From a virus: a stretch of 64,000 bases of DNA. The translations under genes were made by a program, and so were the position numbers. Shown in pieces: positions 571-51,585 of this stretch. The stretch covers positions 1-64,000 of IMG/VR virus record IMGVR_UViG_3300035698_012707; one strand, 5' to 3'. How positions within the stretch are numbered: the first letter of the stretch is position 1; each line of letters starts with the position of its first letter. The notes under the pieces are model-generated. The model was given only the letters and a program-made list of their open reading frames with translations, did no database searches and was not told the origin of the DNA.

Positions 571-780
571 ATGTGGGATGAAGAAAACAATGATAACAAC
601 ATAATAAGACCTTGTCCATTCTGTGGAGGAGAAGCAGAAGAAGATAGGTCTTGCACTGAAGAACTAGAATACTCCTTAGAATGCAAAGATTGTGGAGCTT
701 GTCTATATAGAGATAATGACGGAAGTGAGGATTTTAAACTTCAAGTAATTAAAGCATGGAACAGGAGGACAGATGGTTAA
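571..780 (+). CDS. Lar-like zinc-finger protein with N-terminal WDxxxN tag
   Basis: Sixty-nine residues. After the leading tag MWDEENN comes a Lar-type zinc ribbon: CPFCGG near the N-terminus, a second pair CKDCGA, and the characteristic AWNRR near the end. Lar (restriction alleviation) proteins are small phage/prophage proteins that modify type I restriction; many relatives have only the fold in common. The start is set by AAGGAGACAG just upstream. The end overlaps the next start by 8 nt. Fold assignment is good, restriction role is inference. Confidence 0.7.
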   Translation: MWDEENNDNNIIRPCPFCGGEAEEDRSCTEELEYSLECKDCGACLYRDNDGSEDFKLQVIKAWNRRTDG

Positions 781-1201
781 GACAATAGCTGAAGAGATAG
801 CAAGAGAAGCACATAAAGGTCAGCATAGATGGGGCGGAGAACCATATATATCTCATCCTGAAGCCATTGTTGAACAACTAAAGTTAGAGAACTGGGACTG
901 TGTTAACAACGATGACCTTATCGCAACAGCATGGTTGCATGATGTAATGGAAGATGTTGGAATCACTGGCTTAGAGTTATTACATAAGAAGATACCATTA
1001 GATGTAATCATTGCTGTTATAGCAATGACTAAATTGCCATATGAAGACTATTTAGACTATATATTAAGAGTAAGGCTTAATGAAATAGCAAGAATAGTAA
1101 AATTAGGTGATATTACACATAATTTATCAACACTAAGAGGCGACCAAAAAGATAGAGCAGCGAAATATAAATTAGCTAAATATATATTAGTTCAACTGTA
1201 G
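773..1201 (+). CDS. HD-domain hydrolase, SpoT/MESH1-like
   Basis: A 142-residue metal-dependent HD hydrolase. His28 (YISHP), the His56-Asp57 pair in WLHDVMED and a distal KLGDITHNLS motif match the catalytic layout of SpoT/MESH1 (p)ppGpp hydrolases, and the length fits a stand-alone small alarmone hydrolase. It could degrade the host alarmone (p)ppGpp during infection, or act on another nucleotide. The start follows AACAGGAGGACAG. It overlaps the Lar-like gene, so the two are probably co-translated. Substrate is inferred. Confidence 0.75.
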   Translation: MVKTIAEEIAREAHKGQHRWGGEPYISHPEAIVEQLKLENWDCVNNDDLIATAWLHDVMEDVGITGLELLHKKIPLDVIIAVIAMTKLPYEDYLDYILRVRLNEIARIVKLGDITHNLSTLRGDQKDRAAKYKLAKYILVQL

Positions 1202-1210
1202 GAGAACATA

Positions 1211-1423
1211 ATGAATAAGGTTTTTTGTGGAAATTGTAAATATTATGTACCAATGACTTGTAATTACGGCGGAGATTATTGTGACAAGAAAATAGGATCA
1301 CACTATGAAGCGTACGGTGAAGAATTTGATAGAATAATAGATTATAAAGAAGCCAACGCTGAAAATAATTGCAAACATTATAAACGCATATGGTGGTTAT
1401 TTTGGAATAAGGAGGTAAAGTGA
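1211..1423 (+). CDS. Cys-rich small protein
   Basis: Seventy residues with an N-terminal CGNCKYY pair and further Cys residues (C17, C24 region, and NNCKHY), suggesting a metal-binding domain, followed by a Trp-rich basic tail. The ribosome site is TAGGAGAACATA. It is followed with a 4 nt overlap by the next gene. Family not recognised. Confidence 0.6.
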   Translation: MNKVFCGNCKYYVPMTCNYGGDYCDKKIGSHYEAYGEEFDRIIDYKEANAENNCKHYKRIWWLFWNKEVK

Positions 1424-1680
1424 GCGAAAGAACAGAGTATTTTAAAAGATTAATGAAAAAAGCTTTAATAATATACGATAGTCTTGGTCCTAATGAATCA
1501 GAAGACGCAAAGGAATACATAGATAGTATGGACGTTAAACATGATCATAGACCATTTTATACAGACGATGCTGTTCCTTGCAAATGTGGAGAAAGATCTG
1601 ATGTAGTAGCATTTAGCGATAAGAACTATTGTTGCGATTGCTTACACTTCATAGAGAAGGAGAAAAATGTGGAAAGATAA
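1420..1680 (+). CDS. small Cys-containing protein, GTG start
   Basis: Eighty-six residues starting with GTG, chosen because AAGGAGG lies 7 nt upstream. The C-terminal half has two pairs, PCKCGE and YCCDC, consistent with a small zinc ribbon; the N-terminal half is predicted helical. No known family. It overlaps its neighbours by 4 and 14 nt. Confidence 0.6.
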   Translation: MSERTEYFKRLMKKALIIYDSLGPNESEDAKEYIDSMDVKHDHRPFYTDDAVPCKCGERSDVVAFSDKNYCCDCLHFIEKEKNVER

Positions 1681-1855
1681 AACGTGTGAATTGTGTATGT
1701 ACAACATAGATACAAGATGTAGAAAATTCCCAATAAGTACAACCGAATGGGAAATTGTAAGTTACTTAAGAACATATATAATAGAACACACTGTAAATGA
1801 AGGAGTTAGAATGACTTCATCAAAAGCTTGTGCAGAATATAAAGAGAGTAACTAA
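1667..1855 (+). CDS. small Cys-rich protein
   Basis: Sixty-two residues with an N-terminal CELCMYNIDTRC cluster and a C-terminal Cys, similar in layout to the proteins at 3 and 1211. Its start has AGAAGGAGAAAA upstream. Likely a small metal-binding protein; no function can be assigned. Confidence 0.6.
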   Translation: MWKDKTCELCMYNIDTRCRKFPISTTEWEIVSYLRTYIIEHTVNEGVRMTSSKACAEYKESN

Positions 1856-2031
1856 TGAAATACATAGAACAGTTAACAAAATACGTAGAACGATTGGTTA
1901 ATACAATTTTAGTACTTATGATGCTTTGTCTAGTGTACAGTATTTTTGCAAGTTATATAATACCAGAACTTAAAGAAGGAGATGTGTCGCTAATATCCAA
2001 GGGATGGAGGAACAATAATGAACAGAGATAA
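1855..2031 (+). CDS. small single-pass membrane protein
   Basis: Fifty-eight residues; ATG overlaps the preceding stop region. Residues about 17-36 form one hydrophobic segment flanked by charged ends. The C-terminal codons contain the GGAGG ribosome site of the next gene, giving the tail GWRNNNEQ. No family recognised. Confidence 0.55.
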   Translation: MKYIEQLTKYVERLVNTILVLMMLCLVYSIFASYIIPELKEGDVSLISKGWRNNNEQR

Positions 2032-2898: not shown

Positions 2899-3123
2899 AT
2901 GTTAAAACTATTTAAAATAGAATTAGAATTATGTGGTCCAGAAGAGACCAACAGTGAAGATGTATATGAATACATTAAGTCATTAACTAGAGAGAGCGAT
3001 ATCTCAGATATGAATGACATATTTGCTGTCGGCGGCATAGAAGTAGTGGAAGAAGGCGAAACAACTGTTGAGCAATGGAATGGTGATCCCGTTGACGAAA
3101 TAGATGTAGAGGATTTGACATAA
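2899..3123 (+). CDS. acidic hypothetical protein
   Basis: Seventy-four residues, strongly acidic, especially the last third. The start follows AGGAGGAAACA. No motif is recognised. The stop overlaps the next ATG. Acidic small phage proteins often mimic DNA or bind host factors, but nothing here proves that. Confidence 0.55.
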   Translation: MLKLFKIELELCGPEETNSEDVYEYIKSLTRESDISDMNDIFAVGGIEVVEEGETTVEQWNGDPVDEIDVEDLT

Positions 3124-3521
3124 TGGATACAGAAGATCATGCAGACATAATGTCTCTTTTAAATATGCACCAAGATACTATAATACCCGTAACGCTACGC
3201 GAAGGTAGCATAGTTCCTGAAGATATGCAAAATGATTCAGATGGTCCTTATGTTCATGCAGATGAAAGAACATGTAACCATTGCGTAAGGCTAAGTTCAT
3301 GTTGGAGCGATGTAAACGTAGGTAGTATTCCGTTCAATTTTAGATATCGTTCAGGATGGGATGAAGACAGATATTTACATCATATGCGTGGTGTTACTGG
3401 GCAAATATGTGGTAACTTTCAACATAGAAATGGAGAAATTAATACACGACACGTACAGGCTGAACGCCGACGAAGAGAAGAAAATGGTGAAGGTAATGAA
3501 TGGGATGAAGAACAAAACTAA
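3123..3521 (+). CDS. Cys-containing protein with C-terminal WDxxxN tag
   Basis: One hundred thirty-two residues. CNHCVRLSSCW in the middle plus a later CGNF suggest a metal site. The protein ends EWDEEQN, the window's recurring tag. The next gene starts inside the tag codons (ATG at 3505). No family recognised. Confidence 0.6.
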   Translation: MDTEDHADIMSLLNMHQDTIIPVTLREGSIVPEDMQNDSDGPYVHADERTCNHCVRLSSCWSDVNVGSIPFNFRYRSGWDEDRYLHHMRGVTGQICGNFQHRNGEINTRHVQAERRRREENGEGNEWDEEQN

Positions 3522-3774
3522 AGTAAAAATTGGAGATAGAATAAAAATATTGGCAGCCTCCGATGGTGCAACAGGAGCAAATGATTGTATTGGTACAATT
3601 TTATCGTTGTTTCCTGATCCAGACATAAAAACACCACACGGTACCGGAAGAAATGATACTGGAATAATAGTACGAATAAAAGATTGCAAATATGGAGGCG
3701 GTATCTGGAATATCGGACCAAACCCTACATTTGAATTAATTGAAACAGAGTGGGACGAGGAGAACAATGTATAA
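3505..3774 (+). CDS. SH3-like small protein with C-terminal WDxxxN tag
   Basis: Eighty-nine residues. The opening VKIGDRIKIL and alternating beta pattern match a small SH3/KOW-like barrel shared with the genes at 3767, 4005, 4246, 4835, 5070, 14727 and 14946. It ends EWDEENNV. I chose ATG 3505 because the barrel begins there; the longer frame overlaps the previous gene. The tag codons hold GAGGAG, the ribosome site of the next gene. Confidence 0.6.
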   Translation: MKNKTKVKIGDRIKILAASDGATGANDCIGTILSLFPDPDIKTPHGTGRNDTGIIVRIKDCKYGGGIWNIGPNPTFELIETEWDEENNV

Positions 3775-4015
3775 TATAGGAGACAGAGTAAAGTCTAAAT
3801 TAGATGGTGACGTATCAATGAATGAATGGTATTCTGGTAAAATAATACAAATAATAAAAGATGAACTTGAAACTACAGTATTTATAATGCGAGATGATGG
3901 CGAAAAAGGAAGTGGACCAAAGGGATCTTGGAAATGTAATATGCTGTCTAATAACAAAAACTCGATACAATTGTTAGATCAAGACTGGGATCCGGAGGAG
4001 AATAATGACAATTAG
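3767..4015 (+). CDS. SH3-like small protein with C-terminal WDxxxN tag
   Basis: Eighty-two residues starting MYNIGDRVKS, another barrel of the local family, ending DWDPEENNDN. Start at 3767 is fixed by GAGGAGAACA in the previous gene's tag. The protein probably folds as a five-strand barrel; partner unknown. Part of a run of seven tandem tag-bearing genes. Confidence 0.6.
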   Translation: MYNIGDRVKSKLDGDVSMNEWYSGKIIQIIKDELETTVFIMRDDGEKGSGPKGSWKCNMLSNNKNSIQLLDQDWDPEENNDN

Positions 4016-4253
4016 AGTAGGAGATATAATAAAAAAAAGAACAAACTCCAGGATTCAGCCAGAAGAAACAACAATAGTTAGACATGTCGGTATACTTAAT
4101 GGGTGTGGACATCCTGATAGTATATGGTCAGAATTTGATTCAAAGTGGAATGGGGATAGGAAAGCAGCAAGCAATGGTGGTTGTCTTACTTATAGAAACT
4201 TAAGCCGTGTTGTGTTAGTTACGGATTGGGACGCGGAGGACAATAATGTTTAA
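4005..4253 (+). CDS. small beta-rich protein with C-terminal WDxxxN tag
   Basis: Eighty-two residues beginning TIRVGDIIKKR, related in its first strand to the neighbouring barrels but with a divergent middle. It ends DWDAEDNNV, whose codons contain GGAGGAC upstream of the next ATG. Function unknown. Confidence 0.6.
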   Translation: MTIRVGDIIKKRTNSRIQPEETTIVRHVGILNGCGHPDSIWSEFDSKWNGDRKAASNGGCLTYRNLSRVVLVTDWDAEDNNV

Positions 4254-4491
4254 AGTTGGAGATACAGTAAAAATAAATATGAAAAGAATAAAAGCTTCTG
4301 ATTGGCATGGTTTTGGTAGTTGTGTACGTGACCAAATAATAAAATGGGAAGAAGAAAAAGTAAAACTTAAAGTAACTCGTGCTCAAAGAACTATAAGTAT
4401 AGTAAACGAAGACGGGAAAAGTTGTGGAGCTAGTTTTTATGAACATGAACTAACTTTAGTACAAGAAGACTGGGACAAGGAGAATAACTAA
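4246..4491 (+). CDS. SH3-like small protein with C-terminal WDxxxN tag
   Basis: Eighty-one residues, MFKVGDTVKI start, ending DWDKENN. The tail codons provide AAGGAG for the next gene, whose ATG overlaps the stop (TAATG). Family as for 3505. Confidence 0.6.
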   Translation: MFKVGDTVKINMKRIKASDWHGFGSCVRDQIIKWEEEKVKLKVTRAQRTISIVNEDGKSCGASFYEHELTLVQEDWDKENN

Positions 4492-4835
4492 TGAAATTAA
4501 TTATAGCAAGAACAAGTAAATGCGTTCATCTACTATGGAGAGATACTTGGTCATTCTTGGAATACTACTATTGGGGCATACTAGCACTAACGTTTGCATT
4601 TGGTATATGTACATGTGGTATTTGTGCAGCAGGAATTAGTTCTCCAGATGGTTTTGCTTCATTAAAACCTTGGGTCAGTAAAACATTTAGTATTGCATCA
4701 TTTATGGTATTATCTTCTCTGGCAATATCCTTCATGATTTGGAGTTCATATCCACTTAGATGGATAAGAGATAGCTGGAGAAAAGCGTGTCAATTTATAC
4801 CAAAACCAGACGTCTGGGATAGAGAAGATAACTAA
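4491..4835 (+). CDS. membrane protein with C-terminal WDxxxN tag
   Basis: One hundred fourteen residues with two hydrophobic segments (about 27-50 and 67-88), a Cys-rich patch between 38 and 45, and a basic linker before the tail VWDREDN. This is important because a protein quite unlike its soluble barrel neighbours carries the same tag. Function unknown. Confidence 0.6.
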   Translation: MKLIIARTSKCVHLLWRDTWSFLEYYYWGILALTFAFGICTCGICAAGISSPDGFASLKPWVSKTFSIASFMVLSSLAISFMIWSSYPLRWIRDSWRKACQFIPKPDVWDREDN

Positions 4836-5053
4836 TGACTAATTTTAAAGTAGGTCAAACGGTAAGATGTATTGTTAATGAAGATGCTCAACATGAAAGA
4901 CCTGGATCTGGATGGACAGAAGGATATAAATTTATAATAAAAAAAGTTACAAATGGATCTCCTAAAATATATTGGCCGGGAGAAAATCTTAACGGAATAT
5001 TCGAAGAACACGTAGAATTAGTAAACACAGACTGGGATAATGAGACAAACTAG
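4835..5053 (+). CDS. SH3-like small protein with C-terminal WDxxxN tag
   Basis: Seventy-two residues: FKVGQTVRCIV at the start, a FEEHVELV strand near the end and the tail DWDNETN. It is a clear paralogue of the next gene (shared FKVGQ/FRVGQ, GGW/SGW-EG and VELV). Start ATG overlaps the previous stop. Confidence 0.6.
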   Translation: MTNFKVGQTVRCIVNEDAQHERPGSGWTEGYKFIIKKVTNGSPKIYWPGENLNGIFEEHVELVNTDWDNETN

Positions 5054-5069
5054 TGGAGGTATTGTTGGT

Positions 5070-5321
5070 ATGGCTAAGTTTAGAGTAGGTCAAATAGTAA
5101 AATGTATTGATCCAATTAACCCCCGAGATAACGGAGAAAACGGTGGTGGAGGCGGATGGAAAGAAGGACGTAGATTTAAAATCGGACGTATAACTAATAC
5201 CGGAGATGATCGCGTACCAATTGTGTGGCCTTTTGACGAAAGAACTGGTATTGTAACGGCTGGTGTTTGGGAAGATTACGTAGAATTAGTAAGTACAGAA
5301 TGGGACGAAGAAACTAACTAA
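5070..5321 (+). CDS. SH3-like small protein with C-terminal WDxxxN tag
   Basis: Eighty-three residues, paralogue of the preceding gene (FRVGQIVKCID, WEDYVELV), ending EWDEETN. I preferred ATG 5070 to 5040 because TGGAGGT lies upstream and the family alignment starts there. An Asn/Gly-rich loop replaces part of the barrel. Function unknown. Confidence 0.6.
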   Translation: MAKFRVGQIVKCIDPINPRDNGENGGGGGWKEGRRFKIGRITNTGDDRVPIVWPFDERTGIVTAGVWEDYVELVSTEWDEETN

Positions 5322-7152: not shown

Positions 7153-7323
7153 ATGAGCAATAAAACGGAAAATGTAAAAATGTTTTTCACAGTAATATGG
7201 TTATTAGTTTTTATGTTGTTAACGTTTATAAGTTTCTTTGCATATATTATATTCGTATTTCCAATATTGATAATAATTCAATTAATAAAAAACATTAAAA
7301 ATACAATAAAGAAGGAAAAATGA
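7153..7323 (+). CDS. small membrane protein
   Basis: Fifty-six residues. A long hydrophobic stretch (about 11-44) forms one or two membrane passes, followed by a Lys-rich tail. The preceding AGAGGAAATG provides a ribosome site. The stop overlaps the next ATG. It sits in a cluster of three membrane or exported small proteins. Confidence 0.5.
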   Translation: MSNKTENVKMFFTVIWLLVFMLLTFISFFAYIIFVFPILIIIQLIKNIKNTIKKEK

Positions 7324-7589
7324 GCCTTAAAGAAATATCAAACAATGATGAACCAGGATTTTGTCCTAGATGTAATCGACTACTAGAGTACGGTAGCACC
7401 AGGAATATAGGTGATAGCTATTCATATGAATGTTGGTGTACGTGGAAAGGATGTGATTGGCGGGGATACGAAGTGTATGATCTGCTATTTAATTGTTTTA
7501 TGGAGAACGATAACGAGGAGGTACGAAATGAGAGAAGAACTGATAATAGGAGCAAGAGTTATCCACAATGGGATAGCAAAGGTAATTGA
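7320..7589 (+). CDS. zinc-ribbon protein with C-terminal WDxxxN-like tail
   Basis: Eighty-nine residues with CPRC and a CWCTWKGCDW segment forming a zinc ribbon. It ends PQWDSKGN, a weaker match to the tag. The last 62 nt overlap the next gene in another frame, so this tail could be coincidence or a tag that evolved by overprinting. Confidence 0.5.
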   Translation: MSLKEISNNDEPGFCPRCNRLLEYGSTRNIGDSYSYECWCTWKGCDWRGYEVYDLLFNCFMENDNEEVRNERRTDNRSKSYPQWDSKGN

Positions 7590-7959: not shown

Positions 7960-8163
7960 ATGTCAGCACAGGATGGAAATAAGCTTTCAAAAGCATTGGA
8001 TAGGCTAATAGACTATTTCAGCGAGAAACATGAGATAACGTATGCTGAAACTATTGGTGTATTGCAAATGAAGATTATGGACTTATGGGATATCGCTCCA
8101 AAAGAAAACGAAGAATGTGAAGAGGACAATTGTGAGGAGGACAATGATGAGCGATTGGGATAA
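7960..8163 (+). CDS. small helical acidic-tailed protein
   Basis: Sixty-seven residues, two or three helices and a Cys/Glu/Asp-rich tail (ECEEDNCEEDNDE). It follows AAGGAGAAATT and overlaps the next start by 17 nt. No family recognised. Confidence 0.5.
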   Translation: MSAQDGNKLSKALDRLIDYFSEKHEITYAETIGVLQMKIMDLWDIAPKENEECEEDNCEEDNDERLG

Positions 8164-8731
8164 ACCAGACAATCATACAAACACAATAGGATATCTAACA
8201 TTATATCAATCAAATTACGATGATGGTTTATCGGATTTTGTTTATAAATTTGATTGGGAAGACATGAAAAATGTAACACATGATCTTAATGCTTACATAG
8301 AAAGTATGTTAGAATCTCACAGTGGAGAAGATATAACTGACGAGTGTGATTTGATAGGAATAAATTCAAACAGCTTTCAGGAACACCAAAAAGCATACAA
8401 TCGAAAACATCATACGTTTTTAGAATGGGATAGTGAACACCATATTCCAGAAATGAGCGTTCTTGAACAAATGGATGGAATGATAATAGAAACAGGCGGA
8501 GGGATACACTTTATAAAAGAAAACAAATTATTATCCGGAGATTTAATAACACAAATGCGTGAATGGAAATGTTGTGATGGATTTATTGAATACTCACGCA
8601 GAAAGGGACATGCTACGTTAAGAGTATCACCAAAAGAAAATAACAACAGATTGAAGATAATAAAAAATAAAGAAGGCTTTATATACTCTGTATACAGAGA
8701 ACTTATAGAAAGCTTAAATGATTCTATATAA
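8147..8731 (+). CDS. hypothetical protein with N-terminal WDxxxN tag
   Basis: One hundred ninety-four residues starting MSDWDKPDN. ATG 8147 is preferred to 8144 because of spacing from GGAGG. The rest is a mixed alpha/beta protein; HATLRVSPKEN near residue 165 and a GFIEYSRR strand are its most distinctive segments. An internal EWDSEH is not counted as a tag. No family recognised. Confidence 0.6.
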   Translation: MSDWDKPDNHTNTIGYLTLYQSNYDDGLSDFVYKFDWEDMKNVTHDLNAYIESMLESHSGEDITDECDLIGINSNSFQEHQKAYNRKHHTFLEWDSEHHIPEMSVLEQMDGMIIETGGGIHFIKENKLLSGDLITQMREWKCCDGFIEYSRRKGHATLRVSPKENNNRLKIIKNKEGFIYSVYRELIESLNDSI

Positions 8732-8748: not shown

Positions 8749-9453
8749 ATGTCATTGTTAGACAAGAAAGATATTAATATTCTTTTAGAAGCAGGATTCG
8801 ATGAATCCGATTTAGGATTAGTTTCCGGCGGGAAGAGAGGAATAGAATTATATGCTTCCCCTGAAGATTATTTTGCAAAAGAGCTTATAGAGAATGCGTG
8901 TGAACAAGGCGAATGTGATTTATATGATGAAGTTATTCCAAACGAGCCCACAGAACCATACGACAATAACAGAATGGGGCTATATGAGGATCAAGAGTAT
9001 CCAGGCAATGAAGATCCAACGATAGATGTTCCAATCGACTTAAGAAACCAAGTAGAGTGGTTGGGAACTATAAATATAGGTAAGATGACATTATGGAAGA
9101 CTCGTAAAAATAACTTTTTTAATGACCAAGTAAAAAGAGTTATTCTAGACATATCTCAAGAAGAAAAGAGAAAAATGAATAGAATACCATGGGCTAACAG
9201 AAAAGAAGCATGGAAAGCACACGCTAGAGATGCTTGGGGTGAATTGTGGAAGAATGCTGTTAGCACATTATATAGTAAGCATTGTGAGAGGATAGTTATC
9301 GGCGGGAAAAAGAAATACAATTTAATAATAATAGAAACTGCTGATATGAGAGATATAGGTCATAAAGTACCAGAAGAATGTAAGTGGATAACTATGCTAT
9401 ATTTTGAAAAACAAAAGATGAAACCGTTAATACGACCTAGGAGTAGTTTATGA
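8749..9453 (+). CDS. hypothetical protein
   Basis: Two hundred thirty-four residues. An acidic linker-like region (about 55-95) separates an N-terminal part from a basic, Trp-containing C-terminal domain with RKEAWKAHARDAWGELW and a hydrophobic strand KYNLIIIET. AAAGAGGAG precedes the start. No known family. Confidence 0.6.
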   Translation: MSLLDKKDINILLEAGFDESDLGLVSGGKRGIELYASPEDYFAKELIENACEQGECDLYDEVIPNEPTEPYDNNRMGLYEDQEYPGNEDPTIDVPIDLRNQVEWLGTINIGKMTLWKTRKNNFFNDQVKRVILDISQEEKRKMNRIPWANRKEAWKAHARDAWGELWKNAVSTLYSKHCERIVIGGKKKYNLIIIETADMRDIGHKVPEECKWITMLYFEKQKMKPLIRPRSSL

Positions 9454-9665
9454 GTGATACAAAAAGAATAGCACAAAGACATGGCTATGTTGATCATAAG
9501 TCATCTTGCAACGGGGCTACGGTTTGTGTAAAATGCGGTCGTAGAGGATGCCCAGTATGTATATTCGATCGTGGAATGTGTGTAGTTTGTACTGGTAAGT
9601 GGGATGAAAGAGATATTAGTTTATTTACTGTTGGGAGTGGAGACTGGGATGACGAGACAAATTAG
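9450..9665 (+). CDS. zinc-finger protein with C-terminal WDxxxN tag
   Basis: Seventy-one residues. Three CxxC pairs (VKCGRRGCPVC, then CVVC) form a zinc-binding core, followed by GKWDERD and a final GDWDDETN. The doubled WD segment is unusual in the family. No function recognised. Confidence 0.6.
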   Translation: MSDTKRIAQRHGYVDHKSSCNGATVCVKCGRRGCPVCIFDRGMCVVCTGKWDERDISLFTVGSGDWDDETN

Positions 9666-10159: not shown

Positions 10160-10429
10160 ATGAGCAATGGGTGGGACAACCAAGACAATAGAGGAGAAAG
10201 AATGTTCATATTAAGTGAGAATAATAAAAATAACATAATTATATGTATTGCTGGAGTTATTGCGGTTGCGTTTGTGTGTGCATGCTTTTATGGTACGACA
10301 TTACAAATTCAAGAAACAAATAGAAAATTTATTGCAGAAGGATACGAATATAAGCCAATAATAGAAAAAGAAATAGACACCGAAATAGACACTACTATGT
10401 CATGGGTTAAGACAGCTGGAGAAAAATAA
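10160..10429 (+). CDS. membrane protein with N-terminal WDxxxN tag
   Basis: Eighty-nine residues. MSNGWDNQDN is followed by GGAGAAAGA and an internal in-frame ATG (10202), so two products, tagged and untagged, could be made. After the tag comes one membrane helix (about 24-44) and a soluble tail. The next gene is a paralogue in layout. Confidence 0.6.
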   Translation: MSNGWDNQDNRGERMFILSENNKNNIIICIAGVIAVAFVCACFYGTTLQIQETNRKFIAEGYEYKPIIEKEIDTEIDTTMSWVKTAGEK

Positions 10430-10821
10430 TGACTGACGCAGGATGGGATAACAGAGATAATAGGGAGCAAATTATGATTTTAAGTGATGAAGCAAAACAA
10501 GTTTTGATTGTTGTGTTAGGTGTAATAATATTCACAGCTACTATATTTGCTGGGATATGGACACTAACTAAATGCGGTAATGTATATAAAGAAAACTTAT
10601 ACAGTAAAGGGTATTCTAATACTTATGTTATGAGAAAAAATGGTAGCTTTCTTGGTACTACGTGGATAAAGGGAAATGGAACACCAGTTGTTGTTGGGAA
10701 TAAAATAACAAGAACAACAAAAAATACTGCAGCAATAAAAGCAGAAGAAGAATCTACTATAACTCATGATGAAGCAATAGAGTTTTTAAGAAATGAAGTA
10801 AAGGAGAATAAAAATGACTAA
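10429..10821 (+). CDS. membrane protein with N-terminal WDxxxN tag
   Basis: One hundred thirty residues. MTDAGWDNRDN is followed by AGGGAGC and an internal ATG (10474), the same two-start arrangement as its neighbour. ILSDEAKQ matches ILSENNKN in the previous protein, showing duplication. One membrane helix (about 22-44), then a soluble domain. Function unknown. Confidence 0.6.
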   Translation: MTDAGWDNRDNREQIMILSDEAKQVLIVVLGVIIFTATIFAGIWTLTKCGNVYKENLYSKGYSNTYVMRKNGSFLGTTWIKGNGTPVVVGNKITRTTKNTAAIKAEEESTITHDEAIEFLRNEVKENKND

Positions 10822-11062: not shown

Positions 11063-11428
11063 ATGAATAGAACAAATCTAATAGGTAGACTTACGAAAGA
11101 CCCTGTTACTTTTGATTCCGCGAACGGTAAGGTAGCTAAGTTTAACGTTGCTACTAAGGTTGGATACGATCCGGAAAAGAAAGAGGATAGGATGGAGTTT
11201 GTGCCTGTGACAGCTTTTGGTCTTAAAGATGCTTTTCTTGAGTATCTTTATAAAGGTCGCTTGGTGTCCGTCGAAGGTAGAGTGTCAACAGACAGCTACG
11301 AGAAAGATGGCGCGACAGTATGGCAGACTACCGTAAAGTGTCACAATGGTGGCCTACAGCTTCAAGGTGCTGGCAAAAAGGATGAGGAAACGACTCCAGA
11401 AGCCGCAACAGAAGAAGTAGCAGCTTAA
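11063..11428 (+). CDS. ssb: single-stranded DNA-binding protein
   Basis: One hundred twenty-one residues of SSB-type OB fold: NRTNLIGRLTKDPV at the start, WQTTVKCHNGG-like strand near residue 90 and a short acidic tail. It coats single-stranded DNA in replication and recombination. The usual C-terminal DDDIPF tip is absent. GC content and codon choice are higher than in neighbours, suggesting strong expression or separate origin. A long hairpin follows at 11443-11498. A second SSB lies at 24237. Confidence 0.85.
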   Translation: MNRTNLIGRLTKDPVTFDSANGKVAKFNVATKVGYDPEKKEDRMEFVPVTAFGLKDAFLEYLYKGRLVSVEGRVSTDSYEKDGATVWQTTVKCHNGGLQLQGAGKKDEETTPEAATEEVAA

Positions 11429-11520: not shown

Positions 11521-11829
11521 GTGGCAATCAAGCATGGTCTTGACTTAAGTATAAAACAGGTTGGAAAGACATACAGATGCCTCTGGCATGGACATAATGA
11601 TGTGGAAATGAAAGTAACTGAAAGATTTGATGCTAAAGAATACAATCATTTACTAGACGAAGCCTTTGAGCCAGAAGAACAAGTGTGGGTATCAAGACTT
11701 GATGGTAAGCCCTTTGAGAGAACAGCAGGCAATGAAACTCGCAGGTTTAATAATACTGAAGAGTTATTAAACGAAGCGTGGTTAACACCAATACTAGGTG
11801 GATGGGATCCGGAGGAAAACGATGAGTGA
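11521..11829 (+). CDS. hypothetical protein with C-terminal WDxxxN tag, GTG start
   Basis: One hundred two residues. GTG 11521 is chosen because ATGGAGGATATT precedes it; the ATG at 11509 overlaps that ribosome site. Beta-rich N-terminal half, then a linker, ending GWDPEENDE. The tag codons carry the GGAGGA site for the next gene. Confidence 0.6.
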   Translation: MAIKHGLDLSIKQVGKTYRCLWHGHNDVEMKVTERFDAKEYNHLLDEAFEPEEQVWVSRLDGKPFERTAGNETRRFNNTEELLNEAWLTPILGGWDPEENDE

Positions 11830-12046
11830 ATGGGATGCAAAAGACAATATAGTACAACAAAAAGAAAAACATAAATATAAAATATGTGAAGACTGCGGCG
11901 TTGAAGTTCATTGTGTCTCGTCGGACGAGATGGAATTCCAAGGAAGAGAAGGGTCGCTTGTTTGTAATCATTGTTATGACCTTGTGTCTGGAAATAATGA
12001 ATGCAATCCAAGTCCGTCATGTGGTAATTGTATACATCATAGATGA
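11822..12046 (+). CDS. zinc-ribbon protein with N-terminal WDxxxN tag
   Basis: Seventy-four residues. MSEWDAKDN is followed by CEDCGVEVHC, a CNHCYD pair and a final CGNC, a four- to six-Cys zinc-binding protein. Notably the preceding gene ends with the tag and this one begins with it, within 30 nt. Function unknown. Confidence 0.6.
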   Translation: MSEWDAKDNIVQQKEKHKYKICEDCGVEVHCVSSDEMEFQGREGSLVCNHCYDLVSGNNECNPSPSCGNCIHHR

Positions 12047-12406: not shown

Positions 12407-12705
12407 TTGCCAGATGTTGGAAATGCGAAGGAAAGAAAAGAAAAGTTACTAAACACCATATCTATGGTAAAAAAGGACTTTGTGGATTAAGACATGACTC
12501 TGATCTTCCTCTTGTTATCTTTCTAACATGGTTAGGTCGTCCTTGGGATGACATAGATTTAATCTTTTGGAGTGAACATATTGTACCATTATGCAGAGAT
12601 TGTCACGATGAGTTTCATATATTGTTTACTAAACTTCTTAGAAAATGTGATAATATAGAATCAGAGGAACCGTTAAGAGAATTTATGGAGGTGAATAAGA
12701 AATGA
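12403..12705 (+). CDS. HNH-type nuclease-like protein
   Basis: One hundred residues. CWKCEG, KHHIYGK and IVPLCRDCHDEFH give the paired Cys ligands and the HH..N/H core of an HNH nuclease. Such small HNH proteins in phages act as free-standing homing endonucleases or packaging nicking enzymes. The overlap with its neighbours suggests it is a resident operon gene rather than a recent insertion. Confidence 0.65.
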   Translation: MIARCWKCEGKKRKVTKHHIYGKKGLCGLRHDSDLPLVIFLTWLGRPWDDIDLIFWSEHIVPLCRDCHDEFHILFTKLLRKCDNIESEEPLREFMEVNKK

Positions 12706-15628: not shown

Positions 15629-15629
15629 C

Positions 15630-16310: not shown

Positions 16311-16328
16311 AATAATCGTAATAACTAG

Positions 16329-16357: not shown

Positions 16358-16378
16358 AGGTATATAGGGAGGTGAAGA

Positions 16379-17568: not shown

Positions 17569-17595
17569 GACCCAAAAAACAAAAGGAGGTAGACA

Positions 17596-18009: not shown

Positions 18010-18032
18010 TATCCCCCCACAGTAAAAAATCC

Positions 18033-40509: not shown

Positions 40510-41278
40510 TGAACTAAATGAAATTAGCGGAGGAGGTCCTCCAAGAGGAGCTTTTTCTGTTATGTGGGGTGGTAAGGCTGCAGGTAAAACATCTTCATGT
40601 TATAGCCTTATAGCTAACGCACAAAAAGAAGGTATACTATGTATGCTCTATGATTTTGAGCGATCTTTTGACCCTGTATGGGCTAAGACGTTTGGAGTAG
40701 ATCCAGAGTTATTGTTAATTGCTAAGTTCAAAGATGCTGAAGCAGGCCTAGATAATATAATAGATATATGTAAAGAAGATCTAGTAGGCCTCATAGTCGT
40801 AGACTCTATTCAGGGCTTGTGTCCACGCGGGGAATACGAAACAAAGAAAGGTAAAGAAAAATCAATAGCTGATGATACCATGGCATTGATACCAAGAAAG
40901 CTTAGTAAATTCTTTCCTAAAGCTGCACCTTTTGTTGACGATTCAAACTGTGCTGTTGTTCTAATAGGACAGACTCGTAAGGGTCTTGGTAGTTTTATTG
41001 TACTTGATGAGTTGACTGGCGGTAATGCTCTGCTACATTGGAGTGCTTTAACAATGCATTGTAGACGCGGCAAGAAAGACAACGCACCATCTATCAAGGT
41101 AGACAACGGTAAGAAGGATAAGAGTGGTAAAACAAAACTAGACACAGTACTCATAGGATATGAGATGGTTGTTAAGGTAAACAAGTCTAAAGTTGGCCCT
41201 GATGAGGGTAAAGAGGCTCGTTTGCCTTTTTATTTCGGCAGTGGCTTTTTAAAACTGGAGGAAGAGAAAGATGATTAA
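40352..41278 (+). CDS. RecA/UvsX-like recombinase
   Basis: Three hundred eight residues. GGKAAGKTS (73-81) is the Walker A, preceded by a linker SGGGPPRGAFSVMWGG typical of RecA; LIVVDSIQG is Walker B and VVLIGQTRKG is the L1/L2-side strand. It forms filaments on ssDNA for strand exchange and recombination-dependent replication. ATG 40352 follows CAGGAGGAAG. Some shortening relative to bacterial RecA suggests a phage type. Confidence 0.85.
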   Translation: MVKKTVEDKPLTPEEKRKRLKQKITMINKKAGKTVIQMATESSPRERVPFSSDELNEISGGGPPRGAFSVMWGGKAAGKTSSCYSLIANAQKEGILCMLYDFERSFDPVWAKTFGVDPELLLIAKFKDAEAGLDNIIDICKEDLVGLIVVDSIQGLCPRGEYETKKGKEKSIADDTMALIPRKLSKFFPKAAPFVDDSNCAVVLIGQTRKGLGSFIVLDELTGGNALLHWSALTMHCRRGKKDNAPSIKVDNGKKDKSGKTKLDTVLIGYEMVVKVNKSKVGPDEGKEARLPFYFGSGFLKLEEEKDD

Positions 41279-41471
41279 AGATAATATACTATATGAATTC
41301 TGTAAGGATCATTACTATTGTGATCCAAAAGGCAATGGAAGAGAGCCATGGGAACCATTTGAGAACTATGAAACAGATCACATAGAAAGTATGATACAAA
41401 ACGATGTGATTGCTTTAAAGGAGTTTTTAAAACATAACCTAAATAAGGGGTGGGACGATGAAAGCAATTAA
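41271..41471 (+). CDS. small protein with C-terminal WDxxxN tag
   Basis: Sixty-six residues, acidic, helical, ending GWDDESN. Overlaps the recombinase gene by 8 nt after GGAGGAAGAGAAAG. The next ATG (41458) lies in the tag codons GGGACGATG. Confidence 0.6.
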   Translation: MIKDNILYEFCKDHYYCDPKGNGREPWEPFENYETDHIESMIQNDVIALKEFLKHNLNKGWDDESN

Positions 41472-41663: not shown

Positions 41664-41996
41664 ATGTCAGAAGAATTTATAAAACTAGATGGCAGAGATG
41701 GTGAAGATCCTAAGTTAATGTACGATCTTGTAGATGTATTTGCTTTGGAAGACTTAGTTAAAGTACTTACAATGGGAGCAAAAAAATACAGTCCCAACAA
41801 TTGGCATAAATGTAAAGGTAGATTGAGGTACTATGCTGCTGCAATGAGACACATGGAAGCCTGGAGAAAAGGAGAAGATCTAGATCCAGAATCTGGTCTT
41901 CCTCATATTAGTCATGCAATGTGTTGTCTAAAGTTTATTCATGGTATATCAAGGCTCCATCCAATGCACGACGATAGGAGTGTTAAGGATGAATAG
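41664..41996 (+). CDS. MazZ-like dATP/dGTP diphosphohydrolase (DUF5664)
   Basis: One hundred ten residues. GAKKYSPNNW, RHMEAWRKGEDLDPESGLPH and SHAMCCLKF match the all-alpha phage family DUF5664, whose member MazZ hydrolyses dATP and dGTP. In 2-aminoadenine phages it supplies precursors, but no PurZ or DpoZ is visible here, so a general nucleotide-pool role is more likely. Start 2 nt after the previous stop. Confidence 0.75.
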   Translation: MSEEFIKLDGRDGEDPKLMYDLVDVFALEDLVKVLTMGAKKYSPNNWHKCKGRLRYYAAAMRHMEAWRKGEDLDPESGLPHISHAMCCLKFIHGISRLHPMHDDRSVKDE

Positions 41997-42600
41997 ATTT
42001 ATGTCATCAGTAACTAACTTTTTAGAAAGGCATGGAGTAATAGAAACGCAACGTCCATTCTACACGTCAGTAGTTAATACACCACCTATTGCAGAAGAAT
42101 GGGATTCTGTAAGCAATGAAGAACGTCAAGAACATACACTATATAGTCTTGAAAACGGTACGACTATAAGAATGGCAGAAAGCGTGAACAATGCAGTCGC
42201 TGGTAGCTCCATAGGTGCTAGTCCTATGAGCTGGGCTGTAGATGCTACTACTTTTCAAGGATTAACTTCTAGCATAGAGGCTGTCCCCATGAACACACAC
42301 CCAACGATAAGTCTTTCTTCTGCGCATTCTGATTACACTAATGTTTGGTTTGAATTGGGAAACAATCATACTGCAGAAATTAAAATTCTAGATAACAACG
42401 AAGGACTAGAGATAGCAATAGATACAAATATATTTGAACCAATTATTGAAGACGGAAAGATTAGGTTTATAAGAATGTATGACGAGGAGAATAATGCAAG
42501 TCAAGATACTAGAACACACGAAACATCCATTGAAAACAGTGTACACGGCAGCCCGAACATGTTACTCGGCAGACACACCGTCATCAATACACAGACGTAG
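41989..42600 (+). CDS. hypothetical protein with internal tag-like segments
   Basis: Two hundred three residues. EEWDSVSNEE near residue 38 and MYDEENNAS near residue 163 are tag-like; the second lies just where the ThyX ribosome site is coded (GAGGAGAATA) and the following 36 residues overlap thyX by 107 nt. I infer the protein once ended at a tag and now reads through. No family recognised. Confidence 0.5.
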   Translation: MNRFMSSVTNFLERHGVIETQRPFYTSVVNTPPIAEEWDSVSNEERQEHTLYSLENGTTIRMAESVNNAVAGSSIGASPMSWAVDATTFQGLTSSIEAVPMNTHPTISLSSAHSDYTNVWFELGNNHTAEIKILDNNEGLEIAIDTNIFEPIIEDGKIRFIRMYDEENNASQDTRTHETSIENSVHGSPNMLLGRHTVINTQT

Positions 42601-43491: not shown

Positions 43492-44030
43492 CAGCACTAG
43501 AAAGAGAACTAGAAGTTATCACGAATGAAATAGCTGTAGAGATGTTGGTTGAACCAGAGAGTTTAGCTATGGGGTCTCACGATACAGCATCACAAGCTGT
43601 TCCTGTTCTTATGGAGAGAATGGATAAGGTTTGTGGGCTTATGGATTGGCAGGCAACATTAATAGAGAAAGCAAAAGTAGAACTAGAAGAGAAAAAATAC
43701 ATTCATAAGAAAGCAGAGAAAGACTACAAGCACGAACACAACAAAGCCTATCTTGGATACAAGCAAGCAGACAGAGAGAAATACGGAGCAGACTTCAAGA
43801 AGAACGCGAGGACTGACCCGGAGTATAAAGCTATGTCTGACATGGAGGTAGATGAAGATCTTAACTTTGCTCTACAGAAGGAACGAGATTATTTGGCCGC
43901 GCAGCATGCTCTTGAAGACGCCAAACATAAATATGAAACATTAAACAATCACTTTCTAAGTTATAGAAAGAGCTGTGATCTACTTAAGATAGAATTTGAG
44001 AAGCTAGGGAAGTATGGGAGCGGTGTATAA
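43488..44030 (+). CDS. coiled-coil hypothetical protein
   Basis: One hundred eighty residues, almost wholly helical with a long charged coiled coil (about 57-175). Its place near recA, thyX and exonuclease genes suggests a recombination mediator but sequence gives no family. Start after AGGGAAGAAGA, overlapping by 4 nt. Confidence 0.55.
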   Translation: MTALERELEVITNEIAVEMLVEPESLAMGSHDTASQAVPVLMERMDKVCGLMDWQATLIEKAKVELEEKKYIHKKAEKDYKHEHNKAYLGYKQADREKYGADFKKNARTDPEYKAMSDMEVDEDLNFALQKERDYLAAQHALEDAKHKYETLNNHFLSYRKSCDLLKIEFEKLGKYGSGV

Positions 44031-44197
44031 TGGCTAACAATAATGGTTATGAACGTTACACTACTACAGCTACAGATTCAACTTGGATGCCAGGAACTAC
44101 TGGAACTGGATACTATACTTCTGAATGGATTACTACTTCTTTCGAAGTAAAAGAAGCTTACGATGGATGGGATTCACCAGACAATGAGGGGCAATAA
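44030..44197 (+). CDS. small Thr-rich protein with C-terminal WDxxxN tag
   Basis: Fifty-five residues, Thr/Gly/Tyr-rich low-complexity middle and the tail GWDSPDNEGQ. The stop overlaps the next ATG. The composition is unlike the other tagged proteins. Confidence 0.55.
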   Translation: MANNNGYERYTTTATDSTWMPGTTGTGYYTSEWITTSFEVKEAYDGWDSPDNEGQ

Positions 44198-45259: not shown

Positions 45260-45623
45260 AGCATACCCTAAGATTTTCGCACAAAAAGATATGAGACCAC
45301 AAGAAACATGTCTTTGTTGGGGCATATCTACGGGAAATGGATGGTATAAAATAATAGATAAACTGTGTAGTAAGATACAAAAATACGTAGACAGCAACGA
45401 AGTAAAACAAGTACAAACAGTACAAGTTAAAGAGAAATTTGGTGGGCTTAGGTTCTATGTTGACGGAGCACCAGAGGAAGTATATAAATATATATATGAA
45501 GCAGAAGGAGAGAGCCTAGTTACTTGTGAGGAATGTGGATCTAAGGATAGAGTAAAACAAAGTGTAGCTGGATGGACATCAACTCTTTGTCATAAGTGTA
45601 TGGAGGGAAGAAATGCGAAGTAA
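45228..45623 (+). CDS. conserved phage protein with zinc ribbon
   Basis: One hundred thirty-one residues. CWGISTGNGWYKIIDKLCSKI, the phrase VQVKEKFGGLRFY and a C-terminal CEECGS/CHKCME zinc ribbon match a hypothetical protein family I recognise from many phages, of unknown function. Start after AAGGGAGAAAAAG. Confidence 0.65.
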   Translation: MKKELEKKLFEAYPKIFAQKDMRPQETCLCWGISTGNGWYKIIDKLCSKIQKYVDSNEVKQVQTVQVKEKFGGLRFYVDGAPEEVYKYIYEAEGESLVTCEECGSKDRVKQSVAGWTSTLCHKCMEGRNAK

Positions 45624-45909
45624 TGAATATTTGTGGGACAAAGTTGTAATGGATATGTATAGAGAAATGTATACTAAGTCAGATCCGTCTGCAGACATAG
45701 ATAGATTGGTTGAAAATGGAACTACAAAAAAACCTAATTGGTTTAGTGATTATTATCTTCCAAAGGAAGAGTTCGTAAAAATATTTAATAAAGTATCCAA
45801 AAAACATAGACTAACAAGAAAAGAAAAAGAAAAAGTTTCTTTCGAAGTTTATCTTGGAGCTGGACCAACAAGCGTTAGACCACCCGACTGGGACAAAGAG
45901 GAGAACTAA
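45613..45909 (+). CDS. small protein with C-terminal WDxxxN tag
   Basis: Ninety-eight residues, mostly helical, basic middle, ending PDWDKEEN. The tag codons AAAGAGGAGAAC are the ribosome site of the next gene. Start after TGGAGGGAAGAA. Confidence 0.6.
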   Translation: MRSNEYLWDKVVMDMYREMYTKSDPSADIDRLVENGTTKKPNWFSDYYLPKEEFVKIFNKVSKKHRLTRKEKEKVSFEVYLGAGPTSVRPPDWDKEEN

Positions 45910-46097: not shown

Positions 46098-46573
46098 ATA
46101 ACAACTGGTGGGCAGCTCAAGTAGCAAGCAACAAAGAATATGACACCAAGAGAGAGATAGTAAACATGTGTTCTCTTAAGGAAGATGATGTTCTTATCCC
46201 GCGGCGAATGGTTTATGATGTGAAGGACGATAAGGTAGACAAGAAGACAGAGGTAGTATTGCCTGGATATATATTATTACGATTAGGTAATCAAAAGATG
46301 CTGCGCGGTCTTGAGTCGATGATAAACTATATAAATATACTAGGAAAAATAAGCATGGAAGAAATGGAAATAGTAAAAGAGTTTGAGAACATACCAAAAG
46401 AAACTAACGCCAATGAAGGCGACAAAGTTATAATAACTAAGGGTCCATTTGCAGGAGTCAAAGGAGTCATCGTTGAAAAACTTGATAATACTTACTGTAA
46501 GTGTAGGTTACTTTTTCAAGGCAATGAGATAGTAACATCCATGGACCCAAGAATTGTAGAGAGGATAACATGA
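45986..46573 (+). CDS. NusG/RfaH-like transcription factor
   Basis: One hundred ninety-five residues. After a 38-residue Cys-rich extension (HGCGCDGKSG), NNWWAAQVASNKEYDTK and EVVLPGYILLRL form the NGN domain, and GDKVIITKGPFAGVKGVIVE is a KOW motif near residue 140. NusG proteins bind RNA polymerase and promote elongation or antitermination. A phage copy could redirect host polymerase to phage genes. The start after AAAGGATC is the only candidate ATG. Confidence 0.8.
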   Translation: MVVHYTLHGCGCDGKSGKEAEGSNTCAEQACEPSNEIDNNWWAAQVASNKEYDTKREIVNMCSLKEDDVLIPRRMVYDVKDDKVDKKTEVVLPGYILLRLGNQKMLRGLESMINYINILGKISMEEMEIVKEFENIPKETNANEGDKVIITKGPFAGVKGVIVEKLDNTYCKCRLLFQGNEIVTSMDPRIVERIT

Positions 46574-46821
46574 GCAATGGATGGGATAGAGAAGATAATG
46601 AACTGATTGTTGCAGAAAGAAACAACAATCCAGCAGGCGAAATACAATCAAGACCCGACATTTTAATACCAGGTGCTTTCTATAGTTGTCCTACACACGG
46701 AGAAATACGAGAAGTTATTGTATTCTCACTCGATGGAACATCATACTCATATTGTACTAGATGTTTACATGAACTACTAGGCCAACACTTTACGCCACTG
46801 GAGATGGTTACTAATGCATGA
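46570..46821 (+). CDS. zinc-ribbon protein with N-terminal WDxxxN tag
   Basis: Eighty-three residues. MSNGWDREDN, nearly identical to the start of the protein at 10160, precedes a zinc ribbon (SCPTHGE, CTRCLHE). The following gene has the same architecture. Start inside the NusG-like end after GAGAGGATAAC. Confidence 0.6.
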   Translation: MSNGWDREDNELIVAERNNNPAGEIQSRPDILIPGAFYSCPTHGEIREVIVFSLDGTSYSYCTRCLHELLGQHFTPLEMVTNA

Positions 46822-47191
46822 ATGGGATAGCATAGACAACGAACAAGAAGCAGTAGAGTATGGAGTAAGTCCTGCGTTTGAATTTATGAATGCTAGCCTT
46901 AATTACCATGTTGATACATCGTTTAATGCGGGCGGCTTGTCTTTAGCGATGAATAATGATGTCAGTCATGGCTGCGACAGACATGGACCAGTTAATAGCA
47001 TAACAATAAAAACAGACGTAGAACAAGACGCACATCCAAGAGAGGTAACGGTATGTACTCATTGCCTTATGGACATGCTTGTACGCGAGTGTGGTGCTCA
47101 TGACTCAGATACGCAAAGAAGAATAAATACAGAAAGACAACAGTTACGATACTACGAAGGTGCAGTTATGGCACGGGAGGAACGAATATGA
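46814..47191 (+). CDS. zinc-ribbon protein with N-terminal WDxxxN tag
   Basis: One hundred twenty-five residues. MHEWDSIDN, then a domain with GCDRHGPV and CTHCLMDML, paralogous to the previous protein. Arg-rich helical end. Function unknown. Confidence 0.6.
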   Translation: MHEWDSIDNEQEAVEYGVSPAFEFMNASLNYHVDTSFNAGGLSLAMNNDVSHGCDRHGPVNSITIKTDVEQDAHPREVTVCTHCLMDMLVRECGAHDSDTQRRINTERQQLRYYEGAVMAREERI

Positions 47192-48257: not shown

Positions 48258-48718
48258 AAGAAATAACAGACAATGAAACAAGAAAGCACATATTAAAAGT
48301 AAACGCATTAATAAGTCTTATGATATGTAGCCTAATAGAACGTAGCCTAAAACATGACAGCAGTAAATTGGGAGATGTAGAGGGACCTATCTTTGATGAG
48401 TTTACTCCTAAGCTATCTGGTTCTACTTATGGTTCGGATGAGTACAAGAGCTTTCTAAAAGAAATGAGCGTAGCATTAGACCATCACTATAAGGAAAACA
48501 GACATCATCCAGAGCATTTCGATAACGGAATAAAGGGTATGTCTTTAATCGACTTAGTGGAAATGCTATGTGATTGGAAAGCCGCAACCCTAAGACATGA
48601 TAATGGTGACATAATCAAGAGCATCAATGTGAATCAGGAAAGATTTGGATACTCAGACGAACTAAAGGGAATACTTTTAAACACAATAAAAGATTTAGGA
48701 TGGGAAGAAAGAGAATGA
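48254..48718 (+). CDS. DUF5662 protein, TTG start
   Basis: One hundred fifty-four residues. LKHDSSKLGD, FTPKLSGSTYGSDEY, ALDHHYKENRHHPEHF and LVEMLCDWKAA match the DUF5662 family found in phages and bacteria. Its many paired His and Asp look like an HD-type metal hydrolase. Substrate unknown. TTG is preferred because of AAAGGAGTAAAAG. The end GWEERE is coded over the next ribosome site. Confidence 0.75.
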   Translation: MKEITDNETRKHILKVNALISLMICSLIERSLKHDSSKLGDVEGPIFDEFTPKLSGSTYGSDEYKSFLKEMSVALDHHYKENRHHPEHFDNGIKGMSLIDLVEMLCDWKAATLRHDNGDIIKSINVNQERFGYSDELKGILLNTIKDLGWEERE

Positions 48719-48942
48719 ACAACAAACTATATGTAGATGGTAAATTAAATCCAGAGTTTGATGTACCTATTATTTATTGGTGTCAATGTGAAACAAGAGA
48801 CAAAGGATACACTGCTGGAACATTGGTTTCTAGAGATGAATCCATGAAATCAGACGTTGTTGTATGTAATATATGCAAAGGCCTGGTAAGCCAGGAGCCG
48901 TGGATTGACCAACCTAAAGAGTGGGACGACGAGGAGAATTAG
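48715..48942 (+). CDS. small zinc-binding protein with C-terminal WDxxxN tag
   Basis: Seventy-five residues with CQCE and CNIC pairs and the tail EWDDEEN. Start after GGGAAGAAAGAGA. A 33 nt gap with no good promoter follows. Confidence 0.6.
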   Translation: MNNKLYVDGKLNPEFDVPIIYWCQCETRDKGYTAGTLVSRDESMKSDVVVCNICKGLVSQEPWIDQPKEWDDEEN

Positions 48943-50210: not shown

Positions 50211-50554
50211 AGAGAAAAATAAAAGATTTTGTTCTTGTAGCTGACGCATTTGGACCATTACCAATGTGGTCTTTGCAACATCCGACAAAAGAAATTAAAG
50301 ATTGCTTTATGATATATCAGGTATTAGACACGCCAAAGAAAAAGTGGCCTAAGTGGATGAAAAAACTAGCAGAAATAGAAAAGTATTGCAATAAGTTGAC
50401 TAAAGATTTGATGGACGTAGAAGCATATGTTTCTGGGGAAGTTGTGTACAGCAACAAATACGACGGAAAAAAGAGTAGACACATACTAGATCTAAAAATA
50501 GGTTTTGTAGACATAAGAGGATGGTATCCTACGGGGGGCGATAGCAGTGAATGA
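50207..50554 (+). CDS. hypothetical protein, GTG start
   Basis: One hundred fifteen residues, basic and Trp-rich, alpha/beta. GTG 50207 follows TGGGAGGATAACAA. No family recognised. Confidence 0.55.
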   Translation: MKRKIKDFVLVADAFGPLPMWSLQHPTKEIKDCFMIYQVLDTPKKKWPKWMKKLAEIEKYCNKLTKDLMDVEAYVSGEVVYSNKYDGKKSRHILDLKIGFVDIRGWYPTGGDSSE

Positions 50555-51074
50555 TATAATGGTAGACATAGAAACGCTTGGGACAAAAGTTGACTCAGTT
50601 ATAACACAGATAGGTGCATGTTATTTCGATAGATACTCAGGTAAGATAGGTAAAAGGTTTTTAGCTAACGTGGAGATAAATAGTTGTTTAGAGAGAGGGT
50701 TCTCTGTTACTGGTGGATCAATTAAGTTTTGGCTCGAGCGAAAAGAAAACGCTACGTTCCTTAAGAAGCCCATACCTATATCAAAAGCTTTAGCAGAGTT
50801 TGGTAACTTCATAAATAAGAAGGCTATGCTATGGTCTCACGTTACCTTTGATATGGTCTTGTTGAAATCAGCATACCAACTAGTAGGACAAGGCGCACCC
50901 TTCTCTTATAGGAACACCTTAGACATAAGAACACTAGTCAATATCTCAGGGGTAAAGCCGGAGAAAAAAGAAGGCGAGGATCCTAAGAGTCATGATGCCC
51001 TAGAGGATTGTTTATATCAAGTAGAGTATTGTACTAAGTGCTTTAATGCACTCAAGGAGAATGATGGCAAGTAA
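50547..51074 (+). CDS. DEDDh 3'-5' exonuclease
   Basis: One hundred seventy-five residues. MVDIETLG holds the first Asp-x-Glu, WSHVTFDMVLL the second Asp and SHDALEDCLYQ the His-x4-Asp, i.e. the full DEDDh set. Similar to the short exonucleases of T4 (DexA-like) and to Rv2179c-type RNases. Likely trims DNA or RNA ends. Confidence 0.8.
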   Translation: MNDIMVDIETLGTKVDSVITQIGACYFDRYSGKIGKRFLANVEINSCLERGFSVTGGSIKFWLERKENATFLKKPIPISKALAEFGNFINKKAMLWSHVTFDMVLLKSAYQLVGQGAPFSYRNTLDIRTLVNISGVKPEKKEGEDPKSHDALEDCLYQVEYCTKCFNALKENDGK

Positions 51075-51282
51075 ATGGTGGTATATAAAACAATGGTGGA
51101 AAGAAGATATGTTGTTATGCAGTATTTGGGAATGGATTAAAGACACGTTTGCTTTCCTATTATGGTTAATTTTATTCTTCCCAACTAAATTATTAATTTA
51201 TATTTTAAATTGGTGTAACGAGACTCTATCAGGACAATCAGTAGAACTTAAATATTACTGGAAACACGGAGGGAAACGATGA
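51064..51282 (+). CDS. small membrane protein
   Basis: Seventy-two residues, Trp-rich basic start and one or two hydrophobic helices (about 28-50). ATG 51064 follows AAGGAGA. Function unknown. Confidence 0.5.
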   Translation: MASKWWYIKQWWKEDMLLCSIWEWIKDTFAFLLWLILFFPTKLLIYILNWCNETLSGQSVELKYYWKHGGKR

Positions 51283-51404
51283 AACTTATATTAATAACTT
51301 TAGCAAGCTATCTATTCTGTGACGACCCAACACCTAACCCAGAGTTTGATAACCTCACCTTCATAGGTAGGTTTAATTACTTTAAAAATCAACTAGATGA
51401 GTAG
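51279..51404 (+). CDS. very small possibly exported protein
   Basis: Forty-one residues with a short hydrophobic start ending in FCDD, polar afterwards. Start after GGAGGGAAACG, overlapping by 4 nt. Coding status moderate. Confidence 0.45.
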   Translation: MKLILITLASYLFCDDPTPNPEFDNLTFIGRFNYFKNQLDE

Positions 51405-51414
51405 GAGAAAACCA

Positions 51415-51585
51415 ATGAACAAAGAAAGAATATACAGTATAGGTGAAGGCGTAGTAGGTTGGATAGATAGACCTCATGTGGATATATCCTATGAACCTGC
51501 TTTAGTGACGCCAGAATACAAGAACTATATAGACACAGAAAATTTCACATGTTCAGACGGATGGGATCCGGCAAAGAATAAATAA
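51415..51585 (+). CDS. small protein with C-terminal WDxxxN tag
   Basis: Fifty-six residues, mostly polar with a GVVGWID segment, ending GWDPAKNK. Start after TAGGAGAAAACCA. It is the last gene of the rightward block and the last tag-bearing protein, and no gene follows its tail for 0.3 kb, so there the tag does not serve a next gene. Confidence 0.6.
   Translation: MNKERIYSIGEGVVGWIDRPHVDISYEPALVTPEYKNYIDTENFTCSDGWDPAKNK

Follow-up and report, generated by a model that had tools for sequence, protein, structure and literature searches.

The window analysed here comprises bases 1-64,000 of IMG/VR virus record IMGVR_UViG_3300035698_012707, an 81,342-base contig of a large, unclassified phage. 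Gene calling identified 137 densely packed and mostly tiny genes with strong Shine-Dalgarno sites in a rightward block spanning bases 1-51.6 kb, and the rest of the record to 81 kb holds mainly leftward genes, among them structural, glycosyltransferase, ribonucleotide reductase and primase-helicase genes. No near relative of the phage was found by megablast of a 24 kb query against 50,697 phages, and one structural protein had a single match of 24% identity, to Bacillus phage vB_BauM_KLEB27-3. The rightward block encodes a Cpn10/GroES-like co-chaperonin (27631-27939, +) and two SSB paralogues sharing 33% identity (11063-11428 and 24237-24686, +), only the second of which has the acidic DEVPF tail usual for SSB. 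It also encodes an FtsZ/TubZ-like phage tubulin (33856-35040, +; NCBIfam ftsZ at 5e-16, RepX/TubZ in the PDB) that lacks close kin among the same 50,697 phages, tblastn against them returning no match.

After gene calling, 34 of the 137 rightward genes were found to carry the motif WDxxxN at a terminus (hereafter the tag), 26 at the C-terminus and eight at the N-terminus, the same counts as claimed in an initial annotation of the sequence. All carriers are on the + strand. The N-terminal copies are found on a Lar-like restriction-alleviation protein (571-780, MWDEENN, preceding the Pfam Lar domain), an ORFan (8144-8731, MMSDWDKPDN), two membrane-protein paralogues beginning at 10160 and 10429 (10160-10821, MSNGWDNQDN and MTDAGWDNRDN), the second of two neighbouring genes at 11521-12046 (MSEWDAKDN, the other being C-tagged with GGWDPEENDE), a protein at 12702-13226 (MNNDWDLEDN) and two cysteine-bearing neighbours at 46570-47191 (MSNGWDREDN and MHEWDSIDN). 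Eight C-tagged genes lie in a row at 3123-5321 (3123, 3496, 3767, 4005, 4246, 4491, 4835 and 5070), most encoding SH3-like barrels and 4491 a membrane protein. The C-terminal copies further include a zinc-ribbon-like protein with no nearby downstream start (7320-7589, PQWDSKGN), a cysteine-rich protein (9450-9665, GDWDDETN), a pair at 13337 and 13600 (13337-13995), a trio at 14364, 14707 and 14946 (14364-15164), the latter two being SH3-like paralogues, a protein at 25919-26215 (DGWDAEEN), a very short carrier of uncertain start (29358-29465, LEWDPKENIK) and a pair at 32955 and 33260 (32955-33517). A P-loop (PRRSGKS) protein (35033-35584, REWDDETN) is encoded just downstream of the tubulin, so that the gene directly after the untagged tubulin is tagged. 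The remaining C-terminal carriers are a protein at 41271-41471 (KGWDDESN), a low-complexity protein (44030-44197, DGWDSPDNEGQ), a homologue of a small halovirus protein (45613-45909, PDWDKEEN), a zinc-ribbon-like protein (48700-48942, KEWDDEEN) and the product of the final rightward gene (51415-51585, DGWDPAKNK), which has no downstream start.

The tag is far more frequent than expected by chance. One thousand within-protein shuffles gave a mean of 0.17 terminal tags and 1000 shuffles of terminal composition a mean of 0.23, with a maximum of three in either case, placing the observed number about 150-fold above the composition expectation. The initial annotation would have been refuted by a count equal to that expected from composition, which was not met (~0.2 expected against 34). 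A six-frame scan found 38 occurrences of WDxxxN on the + strand and one on the - strand. An Asn at +5 from Trp accompanies all 34 terminal W-D pairs versus 2 of 20 internal pairs, these two belonging to an HD-domain protein and the uracil-DNA glycosylase. A protein-like open frame at 41941-42600 (+) has an internal EEWDSVSN about 37 residues in and was excluded from the terminal count. Tags were absent from all 45 leftward genes, those between 64 kb and the end of the record included, which extends the earlier observation that the leftward block has none. Tagged genes are also clustered along the rightward block (15 adjacent pairs versus 8.2 expected, P = 0.003).

Whichever terminus it occupies, the tag is always at the extreme end of the protein, with Trp at residue 2 to 6 in the eight N-terminal copies and zero to eight residues following Asn in the C-terminal copies, 15 of 26 of which stop exactly at Asn. 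The residue preceding Trp is Glu, Asp or Gly in 30 of 34 copies. The initial proposal of one shared pattern held with a correction, as the N-terminal class is WDxxDN (Asp at position 5 in 7 of 8) and the C-terminal class WDxExN (Glu at position 4 in 20 of 26, position 5 being free). Its description of the carriers as unrelated held only in part, because seven to nine of them form one SH3-like family and the proteins at 10160 and 10429 are a related pair, reducing the 34 carriers to about 25 separate lineages.

A DNA-level reading had to be tested, since in many C-terminal copies the tag codons overlap with the signals that start translation of the next gene (its ribosome site or start). If the tag were a by-product of overlapping genes, TGGGAYNNNGAGGANAAY would supply the following gene with a ribosome site or start, and the encoded peptide would be incidental. 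In support of this explanation, the next Shine-Dalgarno site or start lies within ~15 of the 26 C-terminal copies or overlaps them, consistent with the earlier remark that these codons often include the next GGAGG or ATG. Against it, no such overlap is possible for any of the eight N-terminal copies or for ~11 C-terminal ones, the copy ending at 51585 among them, as had also been claimed; WDxxxN is nearly always in the gene frame; and the codons for Asp and Asn are free while Trp, Asp and Asn are nevertheless retained. Asp is encoded by GAT in 17 of 26 C-terminal copies (65%, versus a block average of 66%) and Asn by AAT in 13 of 26 (50%, versus 63%), and the same codon is used at matched residues of unrelated carriers at a frequency of 0.522, compared to 0.549 expected from codon usage. 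A possible exception is Pro: the four C-terminal WDP tags all use CCG, a codon of 11% usage, although three of these tags sit where a ribosome site needs G. Because Asp and Asn codons follow usual usage and codon sharing is not in excess, the constraint is on Trp, Asp and Asn as amino acids, and the by-product explanation is all but excluded. A translation-initiation artefact was likewise rejected, as it requires every copy to lie at a downstream start and the codons to be fixed, neither of which is met. Nor were the tags of unrelated carriers more alike in nucleotide sequence than expected, which rejects a recently spread DNA cassette and leaves the suggestion of a spreading intergenic module unsupported in its recent DNA-copy form.

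Peptide-level selection is further apparent in the SH3-like family (3496-5321 and 14707-15164, +), a group of at least seven divergent small proteins with an FKVGDxVK start. An alignment of nine SH3-like paralogues has a mean column identity of 30%, and its only invariant columns are the Trp, Asp, Glu and Asn of the tag. Codon usage, codon identity and these invariant columns together give good support to the inference of the initial annotation that selection acts on the peptide. It would have been refuted had relatives kept the ribosome-site DNA but not the three residues; no such result appeared, and within this genome it is the residues rather than the DNA that are retained. When an SH3-like carrier was used in a fold search, no match was better than E = 0.09, and most of these weak matches were to SH3-like or ribosomal barrels and to SPbeta YorP, which the family may possibly resemble. 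An AlphaFold model of one member (4835-5053) is a small beta barrel of mean pLDDT 72.6, in which the tag follows the last predicted strand and the last residues fall below pLDDT 50; the tagged end is thus predicted to be flexible, on the basis of a single model of moderate confidence.

Two carriers with recognizable homologues indicate that the tag is an added module. The protein at 45613-45909 (+) shares 31-33% identity with a small protein encoded by haloviruses HF1, HRTV-21, HGTV-1 and others, and the five homologues in the alignment all stop short of the tag. In the Lar-like protein the tag occupies residues 2-7 and precedes the Pfam Lar domain at residues 12-67. As an observation in its own right, an apparently bacterial phage encodes, at 45613, a relative of a small protein conserved in the tailed viruses of halophilic archaea.

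Almost all carriers are ORFans. Only one of the 34, Lar, passes the Pfam cut-off, and strong PHROGs matches are limited to Lar and one other member (phrog_13954), which we take to be the carrier at 45613; phrog_13954 is likely the family of that protein. RecA, the two SSBs, uracil-DNA glycosylase, ThyX, endonuclease VII, RusA, RtcB, Cpn10, a cold-shock protein, an exonuclease and the FtsZ/TubZ-like protein are all untagged. With ORFans on one side and recognized enzymes on the other, the tag appears to mark an accessory set rather than replication or virion parts. We infer that the carriers behave like a phage accessory or host-takeover set, the term host takeover being based on a single Lar homologue and on the carriers being ORFans. 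The carriers are acidic on average, three have a transmembrane stretch, and 38% contain CxxC motifs versus 20% (no significance test).

Relatives of the tagged proteins are scarce. Only the protein at 45613 and Lar had matches in the phage collection, and related-locus searches with the tubulin, primase-helicase, structural protein and 45613 recovered no tagged relative; the tubulin search gave one relative of 26% identity, without tags, and a 45613 profile matched eight IMG/VR contigs. Three tag-DNA patterns were derived from the commonest tag forms, the two C-terminal ones matching three to four window sites each. No contig with several tags was recovered with these (three patterns against IMG/VR, one against GTDB), only isolated, chance-like single matches. 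An absence of kin is unproven, as records very close to the window may have lain outside these searches. As no related tagged phage was found, conservation across genomes could not serve as evidence. The literature searched, which left most subscription papers out of scope, contains no description of such a tag, consistent with the statement in the initial annotation that no described system was known.

The tag is terminal, selected at the peptide level, present on unrelated proteins and limited to the rightward block, and with few fixed positions it meets the criteria for a short linear motif. On balance we favour, with moderate confidence, the interpretation that WDxxxN is a docking motif recruiting accessory or host-takeover proteins to one receptor. 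Binding to a receptor, and the existence of a single common one, are inferred, and there are no partner data. According to this model, the tag would sit on the free end of many structurally unrelated small proteins, each carrier contributing its own host-directed domain and the tag bringing all of them to one shared location or machine. Among the conceivable receptors are a hub protein of the phage encoded beyond the contig, a prohead or ejection core, an early compartment, the ubiquitin-like ligases of the phage itself and an abundant complex of the host. By inference, the W-acidic pair and fixed Asn may form a one-turn helix, with Asp as N-cap, fitted into a receptor groove. A guide to a possible pocket is the W-acidic motif read by the TPR of kinesin light chain (PMC5450233, PMC6214655), in which Trp and an acidic residue likewise mark unrelated cargo for one adaptor, although that motif is eukaryotic, internal and lacks a fixed Asn. 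No TPR receptor was seen in the contig among the families shown. Encapsulin cargo-loading peptides and the C-terminal tip of bacterial SSB are also short terminal linear motifs recognized by one receptor. Both differ in sequence from the tag, the former occurring on one or few enzymes and the latter on the hub rather than on many partners.

Loading into the virion is a possible alternative, whereby the tag would pack small proteins into the prohead for ejection with the DNA, as the capsid-targeting sequence (CTS) of T4 does for IPI-III and Alt. The CTS is a terminal peptide of ~10 residues with key residues at fixed spacing on divergent small proteins (IPI, IPII, IPIII and Alt), may let T4-like phages incorporate various proteins, and brings accessory host-directed proteins to a common destination (PMC9026906), as proposed here for the tag. 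The logic is the same, in that small, variable and mutually unrelated proteins, one of them anti-restriction (Lar here; T4 IPI, PMC9026906), share one short peptide at a terminus. However, the CTS lies at the N-terminus and is cleaved off by the prohead protease, whereas 26 of the 34 tags are C-terminal and no cleavage site was seen, a gp21-like site ([LIV]xE|[AGS]) lying beside the tag in only two of 34 carriers and in none of the N-terminal copies. The tag also differs in sequence, is on about 10 times more proteins and extends to membrane proteins, three carriers having a transmembrane segment, and T4-type IPs are described as basic (PMC9026906), whereas the average carrier is acidic. The tag was therefore rejected as a member of the T4-type CTS because of its position and the lack of a cleavage site, but the two remain alike in logic.

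A degron, handing early proteins to a host or phage protease and making the set short-lived, appears unlikely. Compatible with it, the tag is short, terminal, exposed and found on either end, and the carriers are early-type small proteins. Against it, a strict W-D-N in an acidic context is unlike ssrA-like hydrophobic tails. Known bacterial degrons act at one particular end and seldom take the same form at both termini. A degron, or a signal for processing, would nonetheless leave much the same sequence pattern, which counts against docking, and both degradation and localization remain possible. The data do not single out one of the hypotheses raised initially (docking, localization, packaging or degron), and these rivals overlap, virion loading and the ubiquitin-like adaptor scheme below being special cases of docking.

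The rightward block also contains a ubiquitin-like (Ubl) set at 15260-20281 (+). It comprises a Ubl-like protein (15260, +) related to a SAMP2-like di-Ubl polyprotein with two units ending VPKVKGG (17596-18009, +), an E1/ThiF (15630, +), a probable E2 (18136, +) recognized only by its motif HPHVSAEGRPCWGN without profile support, and a JAB/Rpn11-like protease (19301, +; HSHVNMGCFWSGTD). An AlphaFold model of the probable E2 was too poor for use (mean pLDDT 41.6). Iyer and colleagues have reported bacterial operons with this composition (PMC1779556), and ThiF/E1 homologues are present in Bacteroides and Flavobacterium phages. In a bolder reading, about 30 small adaptors would work with the Ubl conjugation set, each binding a different target and docking to E2 or E1 through the tag as an interchangeable substrate receptor, so that different host proteins could be modified. 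In its favour, di-Ubl, E1, probable E2 and JAB lie in the same rightward block as the carriers, which are rich in small Cys motifs (CxxC, see above). Against it, the co-occurrence is in one genome only, there is no physical evidence and the Ubl cluster holds no tagged gene. Some link between the Ubl set and the tag is conceivable, but the adaptor scheme itself is very unlikely, if not excluded; were it true, it would provide a viral counterpart, of bacterial type, to ubiquitin ligases that swap their receptors.

Being on a quarter of the rightward genes, the tag would offer a handle on what some 30 proteins, left unexplained by sequence comparison, are for. The general idea is that common terminal peptides can sort ORFans into functional sets where homology fails.
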